Below, piece after piece: positions 1,234 through 10,324 of a DNA stretch of 25,808 bases. The stretch is taken from positions 1 through 25,808 of IMG/VR virus record IMGVR_UViG_3300025127_000235, one strand, 5' to 3'. Positions within the stretch are counted from its first letter, which is position 1; each line of letters begins with the position of its first letter. The translations under genes were made by a program, and so were the position numbers. The notes beneath the pieces were generated by a model. It had not been told where the DNA came from. It did not search any database and worked only from the letters and a program-made list of their open reading frames with translations. The stretch comes from a virus.

Positions 1234-1240
1234 CTAAATA
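1234..1240 (+). promoter_or_regulatory. Putative T4-type late promoter (CTAAATA)
   Basis: CTAAATA lies 28 bp before the ATG of the first exported protein. It resembles the T4 late promoter TATAAATA and the relaxed forms reported for cyanophages. The same string occurs at matching distance before the genes starting at 9577 (plus) and 11753 (minus), which adds some weight. Confidence 0.45.
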
Positions 1241-1268: not shown

Positions 1269-1772
1269 ATGAAAAAACTACTACCTATATTATTGTTAGC
1301 AGGTTTTAGTTCACCTGCAATGGCTGATATAACACATAAGTTATCAAGTAGTGTACAGTTAAGCGTTGCTGCGGCCGCAACTCAGGTTGAGCGAATCGGA
1401 ACATCATACTCCGTATCAGGTTCTGGTGTTGATACAACATACACACCAACAGGTGGAAGTGCAGTAAGTGATGGTATTGGTTCATTAAGCATATCAACAG
1501 GTGTTGGTGCGATTCCATCTTTAGAAGCAACTCAGAAAACAGCAGGCTCAGCATTCAGCTTTAGCCAGACATTCACTCAAGGTGATGCTCTAGCAACATC
1601 AGCTCCTACTGCAGGAACAGTTTCAAACTTTAGTAACCAGACATCTACTGGTTCAGGAACTGCTGGTGATTTAGCTGGTACAATCACAACTGCTGGTGCA
1701 GTGACACTAACAGCAGGTGGTGCTGGTACTGTGGCTACTGGTCAATTTGTCAACGAACTCACAATCGACTGA
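1269..1772 (+). CDS. Exported low-complexity protein (cyanophage virion/secreted type)
   Basis: This 167-aa protein has a textbook signal peptide: MKK, a hydrophobic LLPILLLAGF core, and cleavage after PAMA near residue 19. The mature protein is rich in Ser, Thr, Gly and Ala with no Cys, and near the end it carries short repeated stretches such as GTITTAGAVTLTAGGAG. This composition suits a beta-rich surface or virion protein. I recall similar exported proteins in T4-like cyanophages, without a known role. It heads a plus-strand group of four overlapping genes, three with signal peptides, behind a CTAAATA late-type motif. The next gene starts inside its stop codon (TGATG), which suggests translational coupling. 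Confidence 0.8.
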   Translation: MKKLLPILLLAGFSSPAMADITHKLSSSVQLSVAAAATQVERIGTSYSVSGSGVDTTYTPTGGSAVSDGIGSLSISTGVGAIPSLEATQKTAGSAFSFSQTFTQGDALATSAPTAGTVSNFSNQTSTGSGTAGDLAGTITTAGAVTLTAGGAGTVATGQFVNELTID

Positions 1773-1912
1773 TGATAAATGACTTCCTTGATAATTTGGC
1801 AGCACAACAATATCTTAAAATGCACGACCACAAAGATGAAACTTGCGATGGTTGTGGTTGTGTCTGCCCTTGTGAATGTCCAGACTGCGATGTCTGTTCC
1901 TGTGGTGCCTAA
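1772..1912 (+). CDS. Cys-rich, metallothionein-like mini-protein (46 aa)
   Basis: The ATG shares a base with the stop of the previous gene (TGATG). The product opens with a helical stretch (MINDFLDNLAAQQYLK), then H18 and H20, and ends in a run with nine Cys at residues 25, 28, 30, 32, 34, 36, 39, 42 and 44, mostly as CxC and CxxC. This density recalls metallothioneins and other metal-binding mini-proteins, but I cannot assign a family. Its last 77 nt overlap, in another frame, the signal peptide of the following gene. Because TGT/TGC-rich DNA reads as Val-rich in the adjacent frame, one frame could be a by-product of the other. The ordinary-looking N-terminal half outside the overlap and the coupled start favour a real gene. 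Confidence 0.5.
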   Translation: MINDFLDNLAAQQYLKMHDHKDETCDGCGCVCPCECPDCDVCSCGA

Positions 1913-2273
1913 TTTCACACAGGGCTCGATGACCTCAAACACAGAGACAACTTCCACTGTGGCTGAGACCATAAATAGTATGAATTATAATACTGGCTAT
2001 CAGTATGTAATTACGGGAACAAATATTTCACATGATGGCGATACTATTTCCGCACCTAATTCAACTGGAAATAGTAATACATTAAATGGAGTGACTTCAA
2101 CATGGACGAATTTGGATCTACAAAGCAAACCGAACTTTACGGTAACAACACCGGGAGCACCCTTTCAATTTACAGAAAGTTATTCCGGGCCTGGCCTCTC
2201 AAATCACACAATAATACAGAGGACAACAACTATCCAAAGCGTAACAAACACAACAAGCACCTTCTCAAACTGA
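1836..2273 (+). CDS. Exported Thr/Ser-rich protein
   Basis: From the ATG at 1836 this encodes 145 aa. MKLAMVVVVSALVNVQTAMS is a good signal peptide. The mature protein starts VPVVPNFTQGSMTS and is rich in Thr, Ser and Asn, with a FQFTESYSGPGLSNHT stretch near residue 110. I recall closely similar exported proteins in T4-like cyanophages, usually beside the other exported genes seen here. An upstream in-frame ATG at 1779 would add 19 residues before the signal peptide and is less likely. The gene overlaps the Cys-rich ORF at its 5' end and the next exported gene by 172 nt at its 3' end, both out of frame. Confidence 0.75.
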   Translation: MKLAMVVVVSALVNVQTAMSVPVVPNFTQGSMTSNTETTSTVAETINSMNYNTGYQYVITGTNISHDGDTISAPNSTGNSNTLNGVTSTWTNLDLQSKPNFTVTTPGAPFQFTESYSGPGLSNHTIIQRTTTIQSVTNTTSTFSN

Positions 2274-2977
2274 TTTCAATCTGTTTATTAGGAACTGCAT
2301 CACCTACATTTGCGAGTGATATTGGTGGTGTTTCTGCGACTGCGAATCCCGTGGCCAACTCTTCAGGCTCCGTGACCAATCAAGCTATACAAGTATTACA
2401 AGGCCCATATATTACAAACACTTATGGTAACGGAATACAATGCCAAGGCCCTACCATGAATGTTACTCCATTTTTCACCGGAAACATTGCCATAAAACGT
2501 CCATATGAGGATTATTGGATGGATCCAGTCTACAACAATGTAGACGCAGATAATGACGATGTGCCAGATAATCCCGGCCAAATTTTGTATTATAAACCTG
2601 TAAAAACAAATCAAAAAGATAGTAGCACAGTATCACTCGGTGTCTCTGCTACTTGGTCAAAACCGTTAGATAAAGAATTACAGCAGCAATGTAAGGATGC
2701 AGCAGCAGCGAATATTGCATTGATGCAACAAGCAAATGCAAATAAAAGATTAGACTTTGAAATAGCTCGTTTGAAAAACTGCGGAGAGTTGATGAAAGCT
2801 GGAATTATGTTTCATCCAAAGTCTCCTTACTACTCTGTATGTGCTGATGTAGTATTAGTTAATCCACCCGGAGTTGTAGCAGAACACAATCATACCATCG
2901 AACATAAACCTTTACCAACTACTATACCAACTGGTGATGCAAGTGTTTTAAAAGAAATATCAATCGGTGGGAATTAA
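2102..2977 (+). CDS. Exported conserved phage protein with Ca-binding-like Asp motif; start uncertain
   Basis: The frame encodes up to 291 aa. A signal-peptide-like segment (LLKLISICLLGTASPTFA) sits at about residues 54-71, after a long basic N-terminus. The mature part begins SDIGGVSATANPVANSSG and has an Asp-rich DADNDDVPDNPG loop resembling calcium-binding repeats, then a helical stretch (LQQQCKDAAAANIAL, RLDFEIARLKNCGEL) with conserved-looking Cys. The only ATG is at 2102, preceded by GGAG ten bases upstream, and it lies inside the previous gene. No ATG, GTG or TTG falls close to the signal peptide; a CTG at 2269 and an ATT at 2272 do. True initiation could therefore be non-canonical. The stop codon overlaps the convergent gene's stop. 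Confidence 0.75.
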   Translation: MDEFGSTKQTELYGNNTGSTLSIYRKLFRAWPLKSHNNTEDNNYPKRNKHNKHLLKLISICLLGTASPTFASDIGGVSATANPVANSSGSVTNQAIQVLQGPYITNTYGNGIQCQGPTMNVTPFFTGNIAIKRPYEDYWMDPVYNNVDADNDDVPDNPGQILYYKPVKTNQKDSSTVSLGVSATWSKPLDKELQQQCKDAAAANIALMQQANANKRLDFEIARLKNCGELMKAGIMFHPKSPYYSVCADVVLVNPPGVVAEHNHTIEHKPLPTTIPTGDASVLKEISIGGN

Positions 2978-4130: not shown

Positions 4131-4595
4131 TTAACCCTCGTCAAGTGTACCAAAAGATCTTCTTATTTCACGAAGTTCTTCAAAGTCTTTTTTCTTTGTA
4201 CCACCATCATACTCCCATGCATACCCTTCGGTAATCATTTGTTCATTGAGTGATACAGTATCTTCCCCGATATATAACCAACCAAGAAGCCTACCATACT
4301 TACCCATGCCACCGACAAGTTCGGTTCTGATTGTAAGTTCATCTTCCCCTGAGATAGTGTCTTCTAATTTTTGCTTTAACCAATAGGTAGCATCTAGTCC
4401 TAACGCTTTTTCTTCTAGGTCACGAGTTCTTTTTTCTGGAGTATCAACTCCTGCCACACGAACTCTTTCTTTCTTGTATAGATCAAATCCTAAATCTATA
4501 GTTACATCTATAGTGTCTCCATCGAGTACCTTATCAATTGATACGACTCGGAAGTTGTAACAACTCTTCCGACTTGGAGGTGTCATTGCTCCCAT
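4131..4595 (-). CDS. Staphylococcal-nuclease-like (thermonuclease family) endonuclease
   Basis: This 154-aa protein carries the staphylococcal nuclease core: VVSIDKVLDGDT, then VRVAGVDTPE, then KYGRLLGWLY. The active-site set of the family is intact: D27 (SNase D21), R46 (R35), D51 (D40), E54 (E43) and R102 (R87). It is therefore expected to cleave DNA or RNA in a calcium-dependent way. No signal peptide is present, so it should act in the cytoplasm, perhaps in host DNA breakdown, or travel in the virion. It sits 21 bp behind a perfect TATAAATA late motif, which argues for late expression. A second in-frame ATG at 4586 is an alternative start. Confidence 0.9.
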   Translation of the reverse strand: MGAMTPPSRKSCYNFRVVSIDKVLDGDTIDVTIDLGFDLYKKERVRVAGVDTPEKRTRDLEEKALGLDATYWLKQKLEDTISGEDELTIRTELVGGMGKYGRLLGWLYIGEDTVSLNEQMITEGYAWEYDGGTKKKDFEELREIRRSFGTLDEG

Positions 4596-6525: not shown

Positions 6526-8799
6526 TTATGCTTCTAATTTAAGTGTTTTTAGAGTCACTGTAATTGCGTTACTACCACTTGTTGCCCTTTTATTCACTAT
6601 CTTTGCATGAACTTGTGCTGCTGGAGTGGAATCATTATTCCATCCAAGAACTGCAGGGGTCATTAAGAATGTTGATGATCCACTTGTAGTTGTACTTATT
6701 TCTGTTAGCACACCAGAACCCGGAGCTGGATCTGTTCCCTCTGATCTACTACTATCAGCAGTTCTAGATGCTGCATCAATATACAATACAACATATGCTG
6801 GAGCACTTATTGTGATACTAAGTAGTGCGAATGATTTTCCTGCTGTTGTAATTGCTGTATTAGCAGTTGCTCCTTGTGCCAATGAACCTGTGGTTACACT
6901 ATTTTGCTGTCTACTTGCTAAACCTATGGTTGCCTGATCAACCCAATCCAATGTACCAGAGCCATCAGTTTTCAAAACTTGGTTGGCATTTCCGTCAGTA
7001 TTTGGAAGAGTTAATGTATAACTTGCCCCTGCACTATGTGGAGGTGATTTAATTTTTACACCATGACTATTTGCTGAACAATTAAGTTGTAATGTTCCAT
7101 CATTACCGCCAGCACCTTTAACCTCCACAACACCAGTTCCATTTGGTGTGAGTTTGATGTTACCATTCGATGTGCTTGTATTAATTTCTCTGGTTTGCAC
7201 ATCAAGATTTCCACCTAACTGAGGTGAAGTATCTGAAACAACGTCAGCAGTAGCAGAAATACCAGTAAGTGCTGAACCATCACCGCTGAATGATGTTGCA
7301 GTTAAGATTCCAGTTACAACTGCTCCTGTATTTGTGGTGGCAAATTTCTCATTGCCATTAAAATATAATTTTACATCTTGATTCTTAGTAGCTTTAAGAT
7401 ATCTGTCACTATTATCTGCTGTTTTGAGTGCGAGTGAATCACTACGAATATGAAAATCACCCGTAGAATTTTTTATATTGCTGTTTGGGGCATCATGCCA
7501 TATCTCAAGATCATCATTATTTCCAAATTTTATTCTAGCAGCATCAGTAAACTCTAAATCATTTTCAGAAGCATCAAATGTTATATTCTGACCAGCAGCA
7601 GCACCTTGGAAAATTACATCAGCATTATTGAATGTAGTAACACCAGCAACACTTAAAGTCTGAGCAGATATATGTTCTGTTGATGCAGCACCAGCAGATC
7701 CAGTGACAGTAACTATTCCTGCAGATATAGCAGACACTGATAGGTTACTTCCGAAGTTTATAGTTCCAGCTGTGCCAACAGTTGAACCACTATCCTTAAC
7801 AACAACACCAGAACCTGATCCGACAATACCAGTTAATCCAGAACCATCACCTACAAAGTTAGATGCAGTGACTATTCCAGATGCATTTATCTGATTGAAT
7901 ACAGAAGTTCCAGTGGTGCTTATACCTGCGATACTACCACTACCACCACTAGCCGTTACAACACCATTACCATCAATAGATAATCCACTACCGATTTTGA
8001 TACCACCAAGTGTTCCTGCAGATGCAGTCGGAAGTGTATAACCACCACCAGCAGTATCAGATCCAACCCATTTACCTGATGCAGCATTATACTTTAAAAA
8101 CTTATTATCTACCTTTGCAGTTGAAGTATCAACATCATCCAAATCAGATATAAGAACAGCACCACCGCCACCTAGTGTTGATAGTTGTCTTTGAATTCTA
8201 TTTAAAAATAATCTATAATGTTCTTGAAAATCTTGAAGATTGACAAAGTTTTTATCTAATGGTGTTAAAGGATCACTGTTATCAACGCTAGGTGGTTCAT
8301 TGTAACTTTCAGTTAATAACTTAACATGTTTTTCATTAATAATATTGACTCTATTTTCAAGGTGTTTTATATTATCAAATACATCTCCCTTCAATAAGTT
8401 CTGTACATCAACAATAATATTTTCCTTTAAATCATTTAACTTTATTGCCCTTTGTCTTTTCTCAATAATAGTAACTTCAGTTGTTAAATTGCTATGTGAT
8501 TTTCTAAGTGCTTTGACTTCATTTGAAAACTCCTCTTTGATTCTATCAATCTTCTTATTGAGTTTTTGTATTACCTCATTATATTGAGTTTGTAAAGAAA
8601 CTACATTTACATTATTATCTACGACTTCTGACAAAGATTCATTGATAGAACTTGAAACATCTTCGAGTTGCTTCTTTAGTTCATCAACTTTACTAAATTG
8701 ATTTCTTATTTTGCTAATGCTTTCATTCACATTCGGAGAGGTATCTTGTATTACATTCCTCTTCTTTGCAAATAAATCACCCGGTTTTTTTAAAGCCAC
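6526..8799 (-). CDS. Long tail-fibre-like structural protein with repeated GDGSGLTGI modules
   Basis: This 757-aa protein begins with a long coiled coil (about residues 25-200, rich in K, E, N and L heptads). A transition region follows (LISDLDDVDTSTAKVDNKFL, then KYNAASGKWVGSD). The rest is a beta-rich Ser/Gly/Thr repeat body with ASNFVGDGSGLTGIVG and ATSFSGDGSALTGISA modules and a segment reading FGNNDDLEIWHDAPNSNI. These are hallmarks of trimeric phage fibre or whisker proteins in cyanophages. The C-terminal 110 residues form a compact domain ending in ITVTLKTLKLEA and could contact the host. It lies between the lipoprotein gene and the subtilase gene. An AATAAATA motif 29 bp before the ATG may be a late promoter. 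Confidence 0.85.
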   Translation of the reverse strand: MALKKPGDLFAKKRNVIQDTSPNVNESISKIRNQFSKVDELKKQLEDVSSSINESLSEVVDNNVNVVSLQTQYNEVIQKLNKKIDRIKEEFSNEVKALRKSHSNLTTEVTIIEKRQRAIKLNDLKENIIVDVQNLLKGDVFDNIKHLENRVNIINEKHVKLLTESYNEPPSVDNSDPLTPLDKNFVNLQDFQEHYRLFLNRIQRQLSTLGGGGAVLISDLDDVDTSTAKVDNKFLKYNAASGKWVGSDTAGGGYTLPTASAGTLGGIKIGSGLSIDGNGVVTASGGSGSIAGISTTGTSVFNQINASGIVTASNFVGDGSGLTGIVGSGSGVVVKDSGSTVGTAGTINFGSNLSVSAISAGIVTVTGSAGAASTEHISAQTLSVAGVTTFNNADVIFQGAAAGQNITFDASENDLEFTDAARIKFGNNDDLEIWHDAPNSNIKNSTGDFHIRSDSLALKTADNSDRYLKATKNQDVKLYFNGNEKFATTNTGAVVTGILTATSFSGDGSALTGISATADVVSDTSPQLGGNLDVQTREINTSTSNGNIKLTPNGTGVVEVKGAGGNDGTLQLNCSANSHGVKIKSPPHSAGASYTLTLPNTDGNANQVLKTDGSGTLDWVDQATIGLASRQQNSVTTGSLAQGATANTAITTAGKSFALLSITISAPAYVVLYIDAASRTADSSRSEGTDPAPGSGVLTEISTTTSGSSTFLMTPAVLGWNNDSTPAAQVHAKIVNKRATSGSNAITVTLKTLKLEA

Positions 8800-9738: not shown

Positions 9739-9824
9739 AAAACTTACCAATCAAATCAACAAGTATTTTATTCGGATTAATCTGCATAGCGGTTTATGCA
9801 TCAATTAACTACGCATGGGTATGA
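9735..9824 (+). CDS. 29-aa membrane mini-peptide in the PTOX unit
   Basis: ATG at 9735 overlaps the previous stop (ATGA). It is preceded by AAGGAGA five bases upstream, one of the best ribosome binding sites in the window. The product MKNLPIKSTSILFGLICIAV plus YASINYAWV has a basic start and a single hydrophobic helix. Its stop TGA overlaps the preferred ATG of PTOX (ATGA). A strong ribosome binding site on a peptide this small suggests either a real membrane peptide next to the oxidase or a leader peptide that couples ribosomes into PTOX translation. Confidence 0.6.
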   Translation: MKNLPIKSTSILFGLICIAVYASINYAWV

Positions 9825-10324
9825 AAAAATTTAACACATGGGTCTTGGATGTAACTATCTACATCCTTGACTTTCTCTACAGAGGTAGAGACTTTCAAAG
9901 ATTCTGGGTTCTAGAAGTTATTGCAAGAGCACCTTACTTTTCATTCATCAGTGTGTTACATTTCCGAGAATCACTAGGATTACGTGGTGAAGAACATATA
10001 TACTTGATGAAGGAACACTTCTATCAGGCACTAAATGAAACAGAACACTTGGAAGAAATGGAGCTTAGAGAAGGTAACAAGTATTGGATTGACCGCTTCT
10101 TTGCCAAACATCTTGTTTTACTTTATTATTGGATTATGGTTGGGTACTATCTTCTTAGTCCTAAGAACGCTTATGACATCAACATGAAGATTGAAAAGCA
10201 TGCCTTTGAGACATACACAAAATATAGTGCATATCATCCCGAAGATACGAAGATAGCTGAGATTGCACAAGATGAATTAAACCACTCTAAAGAGTTGCAG
10301 CAAGCAATGTTAATGATTGCCTAA
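9821..10324 (+). CDS. ptox: Plastoquinol terminal oxidase (PTOX)
   Basis: This 167-aa di-iron oxidase of the AOX/PTOX family transfers electrons from plastoquinol to oxygen at the thylakoid membrane. All six iron ligands can be placed: E32 in LEVIARAPYF, E73 and H76 in NETEHLEEME, E125 in IEKHAFETY, and E152 and H155 in DELNHSKEL. The segment DRFFAKHLVLLYYWIM matches the hydrophobic part of plant and cyanobacterial PTOX. It is short compared with plant PTOX and lacks the insertion before the last ligand pair. In cyanophages PTOX is thought to relieve photosystem II pressure when phage carbon metabolism alters downstream electron use. The ATG at 9821 overlaps the previous stop; an in-frame ATG at 9815 adds two residues. 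Confidence 0.95.
   Translation: MKKFNTWVLDVTIYILDFLYRGRDFQRFWVLEVIARAPYFSFISVLHFRESLGLRGEEHIYLMKEHFYQALNETEHLEEMELREGNKYWIDRFFAKHLVLLYYWIMVGYYLLSPKNAYDINMKIEKHAFETYTKYSAYHPEDTKIAEIAQDELNHSKELQQAMLMIA

Follow-up and report, generated by a model that had tools for sequence, protein, structure and literature searches.

The window, a virus record of 25.8 kb (25,808 nucleotides), is a fragment of a T4-like cyanophage. Close to its start lies a set of overlapping genes on the plus strand, with the following features:

1234..1240, + strand: CTAAATA, seen by sequence only, which we take to resemble a T4-type late promoter element
1269..1772, + strand: upstream gene, phrog_564, exported protein of unknown function
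1772..1912, + strand: Cys-rich peptide gene, 46 aa, MINDFLDNLAAQQYLKMHDHKDETCDGCGCVCPCECPDCDVCSCGA, an ATG-started ORF supported by conservation and selection in relatives
1772..1825, + strand: N-terminal phage module, MINDFLDNLAAQQYLKMH, found in 97 distinct ORFs with 15 body clusters
1836..2273, + strand: DUF6322 gene (PF19847, phrog_650)
1836..1895, + strand: probable signal peptide of the DUF6322 protein, MKLAMVVVVSALVNVQTAMS, in the +1 frame of the Cys core
1844..1903, + strand: Cys core, residues 25-44, homologous to a Prochlorococcus stand-alone peptide
2102..2977, + strand: third gene of the set, phrog_848, start uncertain, overlapping the end of the DUF6322 gene

The TGA of the upstream gene (1770-1772) shares one base with the ATG of the Cys ORF. 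This 1-nt stop/start overlap suggests translational coupling, in which ribosomes ending the upstream gene would restart on the ATG of the Cys ORF. Residues 25-44 hold nine Cys and are preceded by His 18 and His 20, as a preliminary description of this DNA had stated. It had also proposed that the Cys part shares its DNA with the signal peptide of the next gene, and this is borne out, since the Cys part is the +2 frame of the signal peptide. The downstream gene belongs to DUF6322 by its match to PF19847 (E 5.2e-38, 130 bits against a curated cut-off of 30.6), and an alternative in-frame ATG at 1779 is also possible. The mature DUF6322 protein begins VPVVPNF at 1896, a start that is conserved in relatives, and the preceding stretch matches in hydropathy the signal peptides of those relatives that lack a Cys ORF.

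The Cys peptide of the window has no match in Pfam, PHROG or NCBIfam, and none of the curated metallothionein profiles is matched by the window, host or other phage peptides. The AlphaFold model has a mean pLDDT of 57 and shows no confident fold, with a low-confidence helix over residues 2-22 and no fold in the Cys part. A search for a PDB relative returned no solid match, and hits to L40e at an E of about 0.5 were judged to be chance.

A DUF6322 match is present in 417 phage records. Relatives were collected by reading 80 viral contigs with the upstream gene and 80 with DUF6322 in all frames. This gave 155 loci with an anchorable mature start, including the window and three isolate loci and excluding a copy of the window (L007). 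Five Cys classes cover 92 of the 155 loci (A 18, B 20, C 6, D 21, S 27), and the other 63 comprise a few further Cys-rich forms and many ordinary signal peptides without a Cys ORF. The N-terminal sequence of this ORF varies by class, being MINDFLDNLAA in A, MKLKDHAFAIKENED in B, MTDEK or MSNEE in D, and LTEDxxNEYYDSL or NDPFWKD in S. The class S leader is often TTG-started, and most S-type ORFs need this start. Only about 4-7 Cys remain in classes S and B, with the layout C-x2-C-G ... C-x-C; classes A and D have up to 11 Cys and leave little room for a fold. Conserved positions include G, P, E and D residues and the N-terminal module as well as the Cys. Other clades have the overlap with different N-termini, or no overlap. 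Among 13 isolate records chosen as S-type or S-ShM2 matches, 12 hold a Cys ORF with 4-7 Cys, syn9 being the one without, and the ORF is annotated in none of the 12. D-type and B-type peptides gave no match and one chance-level match against isolate genomes. S-type pattern matches L345-L424 were examined for stand-alone state; two that had seemed to stand alone (L381, L408) proved to be overlapped, with SVVPNFTRG in +1.

Selection acts more strongly on the Cys frame than on the frame of the signal peptide. The pN/pS values for the Cys frame and the signal-peptide frame are 0.04 and 2.4 in A1, the class nearest to the window, 0.07 and 1.3 in Ains, 0.27 and 1.35 in D, 0.40 and 1.09 in S, 0.55 and 0.92 in B, and 0.77 and 0.87 in C. 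Over the overlap the Cys frame is therefore lower in all six Cys groups, the difference being modest in B and small in C (n 5), and the signal-peptide frame exceeds 1 in four of the six. Both control groups without a Cys ORF show the reverse (K 2.52 and 0.71; T 1.30 and 0.75).

As these groups were defined by Cys motifs, a third-base test was repeated with clusters built from the signal-peptide amino acids alone, after identical DNA rows were deduplicated (155 to 145). Third bases are frozen in three clusters with a Cys ORF (p 0.0003, 0.0001 and 0.0007, with columns treated as exchangeable and phylogeny ignored). Four clusters without the ORF give p 0.023, 0.87, 0.094 and 0.16, one being weakly positive, again with phylogeny ignored. 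Stops in the Cys frame, which would speak against a gene, were sought in close relatives, and the +2 frame is open at 36/36 distinct loci of the signal-peptide cluster that contains the window and at 26/26 and 18/18 in two further Cys-bearing clusters. Of 29 conserved Cys columns, 21 contain TGT as well as TGC, the signal peptide carrying Val or Ala accordingly; the exception is a pair of S rows with TCT and Leu at one Cys column. Both frames are open in relatives, and the second frame shows purifying selection beyond that of the first (phylogeny ignored). The earlier proposal that the two sequences constrain each other, provided that both are translated, is thus upheld by pN/pS, third-base freezing and the Val/Ala switches. 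It needs amending in one respect, as the constraint is unequal: the Cys frame is the conserved and more constrained frame in relatives, its homologues can stand alone, and the signal peptide looks derived.

Some Cys are expected from the signal peptide itself, as a signal-peptide codon with a final T, when a Val or Ala codon comes next, produces a Cys in the +2 frame. When the signal-peptide stretch was rewritten with the codon usage of the window (4000 draws), the +2 frame held a mean of 4.7 Cys. The probability of at least nine was 0.0073, falling to 0.0018 when the frame also had to lack a stop. The occurrence of Val/Ala codons behind codons that end in T therefore explains about half of the Cys but not the excess.

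The first 18 residues of the Cys ORF are a recurrent phage N-terminal module, which is phage-specific and probably helical. The module, NDFLDNL[A/G] or more fully M(I)NDFLDNL[A/G]AxQ[YH]xKM, leads otherwise different small cyanophage proteins. Two degenerate patterns matched 66 and 65 stretches, and the 97 ORFs were reached by adding isolate records. Their bodies include a coiled-coil-like one and ones matching phrog_618 and phrog_2067. In each of eight phage records searched, some of them short fragments, the module occurs once; across the module ORFs listed (L001, L002, L003, L008-L013, L180-L310) it likewise seems to occur once per genome. An element acting at the DNA level was rejected as the source of the module because codons are mixed at every degenerate position.

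Of 32 distinct Cys-type module ORFs, 29 have a DUF6322 start after them in +1, and another (L214) is cut off by the end of its contig. The same peptide stands alone in L187 and L195, with genes of tail or baseplate type on one side and other small genes on the other, and no DUF6322 start lies downstream of it on either contig. In L193 the signal-peptide frame has a stop within the module region, so the module there is not shared coding.

The Cys core also has relatives in host genomes. The back-translated core CGCxCPCECxDC was searched against 257 Gb of prokaryote genomes and gave 34 matching stretches, with a rough expectation of about 0.002 under equal base frequencies. All but one (33/34) come from records of Prochlorococcus or Synechococcaceae, in which the ORF stands alone. 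The remaining record, L323, is labelled a gammaproteobacterial MAG and shows a phage-type DUF6322 locus with VPVVPxF in +1, probably through a binning error; it was dropped from the host counts. The host homologue stands alone, is 45-46 aa long and carries CPGCGCxCPCECxDCxEC. The strict pattern is matched exactly in 31 of 200 sampled Prochlorococcus-genus genomes, whose completeness is not given. Pairwise BLAST of the window peptide against the host peptide gives only E 0.003. The core pattern with two codons between CP and CEC had no matches. Kinship with the host gene is not extended to classes S, B and C because these lack the CGCxCPCEC core, and the S-type pattern was also absent from all 400 family genomes searched.

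The host gene is preceded by a Zur-type box. Of 32 regions upstream of the host ATG, 28 score at least 13 of 15 for the box TGATAATCATTTTCA, compared with 0.4% of shuffles; L326, which has no ATG in frame, was dropped in defining the 32. In 24 of the 32 regions the box is centred at -81 to -84 from the estimated transcription start. In MIT 9314 the same box is found between a ZnuA gene and an ABC ATPase, beside a FUR-family gene, and MIT 9107 has the same znu arrangement, judging from sequence alone. The fixed upstream position of this predicted site, which is the box also present at znuA/znuC, would place the host homologue in the Zur regulon. PMC9337993 describes a comparable case in Synechococcus WH8102, where Zur boxes are predicted between znuC and znuA and before bmtA, and Zur activates bmtA. 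The host gene resembles bmtA in having a Zur-type box. As the box lies upstream of the -35 element, the host gene is probably activated by Zur, which would occur at sufficient zinc as for bmtA in WH8102, and such activation would make the gene a zinc store. Two Zur-type boxes lie upstream of the host Cys gene of MIT 9314 (L316). The ORF that follows this gene is presumably HupE/UreJ-like. Elsewhere in MIT 9314 (L468, about 1501-1561), an NMT1-like substrate-binding protein gene is likewise preceded by two Zur-type boxes.

No Zur box was found at the phage gene, the sole match in the window being at 7445 with two mismatches, as expected by chance. Expression in the phage is therefore probably tied to the phage programme.

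The host gene also bears on the origin of the signal peptide. Its +1 frame has a median maximal 11-residue hydropathy of 2.37 (n 33), against 2.27 and 2.42 for signal peptides of relatives without a Cys ORF and 1.15 for the +1 frame of long host ORFs. Given this signal-peptide-like hydropathy, putting a gene rich in Cys in front of a mature exported protein could yield a usable signal peptide at once. The two frames can share DNA because TGY read in +1 becomes GTN or GCN, and the TGT/TGC codons would in this way supply the Val/Ala run of the next gene's signal peptide. The signal peptide looks derived from the Cys gene, given the stronger constraint on the Cys frame and the stand-alone homologues in host and phage. 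From these stand-alone copies, and from the relatives with ordinary signal peptides, we infer that overprinting ran from the Cys gene to the signal peptide.

Taken as a whole, these sequence comparisons make it probable that the ORF at 1772-1912 is translated and encodes a small, Cys-rich peptide of the cytosol, most likely binding zinc in thiolate sites as a functional metallothionein analogue. The Zur-type box of the host homologue makes metal binding, which the preliminary description had suggested, the best interpretation. None of the results favours the further suggestion that the peptide buffers metals for nearby exported or photosynthetic proteins. The phage peptide would share ancestry with the stand-alone Prochlorococcus gene and its predicted Zur control, and would probably be made late, holding or relaying zinc during virion production. 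The module, as a leader on different small proteins, may be a docking tag. A fuller history can be proposed more tentatively, and we hold it at a little short of even odds: a hitherto undescribed, Zur-activated zinc-storage peptide of Prochlorococcus would have been captured by T4-like cyanophages, fused to a docking module and joined to DUF6322, its Cys codons giving rise to the signal peptide in +1.

Other readings of the ORF differ in how well they fit. It may encode a real peptide with a single structural zinc or iron site, an adaptor or regulator that acts on a partner through the module and stores no metal. The 4-7 Cys of classes S and B would be enough for one site, and a module seen on many other small proteins may act in protein docking. 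However, the Zur-type box of the host homologue points to zinc supply, and the up to 11 Cys of classes A and D leave little space for a fold, so we regard this reading as unlikely though worth keeping in mind. Much less credible is a regulatory leader, in which a Cys-codon-rich ORF would sense cysteine supply and attenuate translation of DUF6322 while the peptide itself is idle. Mycobacteria have polycysteine leader ORFs, which are short, Cys-rich and coupled to a downstream gene, and the coupled position, the overlap with the downstream start and the many Cys codons seen here fit that precedent. In a cysteine-responsive leader, only the Cys codons should matter and the ORF should always precede the regulated gene. 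Neither holds here, since conservation also covers the N-terminal module and G, P, E and D residues, and some copies stand alone with no DUF6322 gene after them; nor are the Cys codons in a run. The conserved non-Cys residues and the stand-alone copies argue for a working product rather than a leader of the mycobacterial type. The least probable reading, that T-ending codons of a Val/Ala-rich signal peptide yield the +2 Cys and the ORF is untranslated, accounts for the roughly 4.7 Cys of the recoding and for certain relatives with few Cys and stops in the Cys frame, but was rejected through the recoding and the clusters built blind to the Cys frame, and is contradicted by the lower pN/pS of the Cys frame, by third bases frozen only where a Cys ORF exists, and by stand-alone phage and host homologues, which have no +1 signal peptide to cause their Cys. 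The ORF at 1772-1912 is best read as a real gene.

As a metallothionein analogue, the peptide can be compared with SmtA/BmtA of Synechococcus, which are likewise small and Cys-rich, occur in marine picocyanobacteria and are a putative zinc store. It differs from them in that the Cys peptide is shorter, matches nothing in Pfam or NCBIfam and shows no treble-clef-like fold, and in that the phage copy overlaps a signal peptide and carries the phage module. The closer likeness is to the Prochlorococcus stand-alone ORF (e.g. L316, MIT 9314), with which it shares the core CGCxCPCECxDC and the Cys spacing, whereas the host ORF stands alone with a Zur-type box, another N-terminus and no signal-peptide overlap. 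In lambda Rz/Rz1, a signal sequence is embedded in another frame of a neighbouring gene. The arrangement here departs from Rz/Rz1 in that the partner is Cys-rich and probably cytosolic, and in that the Cys frame dominates. The literature searched, which takes in few subscription papers, gives no description of the Cys peptide or of the NDFLDNL string, nor of a Zur-controlled small Cys protein in Prochlorococcus.

The locus offers a clean, testable case of opposite chemistries, thiolate and hydrophobic, in two frames of one DNA, and a route by which a signal peptide might emerge from a gene rich in Cys. On this evidence, marine cyanophages would carry a zinc peptide of the host type, and Prochlorococcus would possess a small Cys protein under Zur control. 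If true, overprinting of a metal-binding gene gave birth to a signal peptide, and annotation has overlooked a zinc gene in a virus. A further outcome of the comparison is the N-terminal module, which recurs across many small proteins of cyanophages.

A second overlap is present in the same gene set, as the third gene begins within the DUF6322 gene (2102-2273 in the window), an arrangement also found in isolates (L005 1410-1575). Further along, the window carries an endonuclease-family gene (phrog_452, 4131-4595) and a plastoquinol terminal oxidase gene (phrog_4235, 9815-10324), both usual cyanophage genes.
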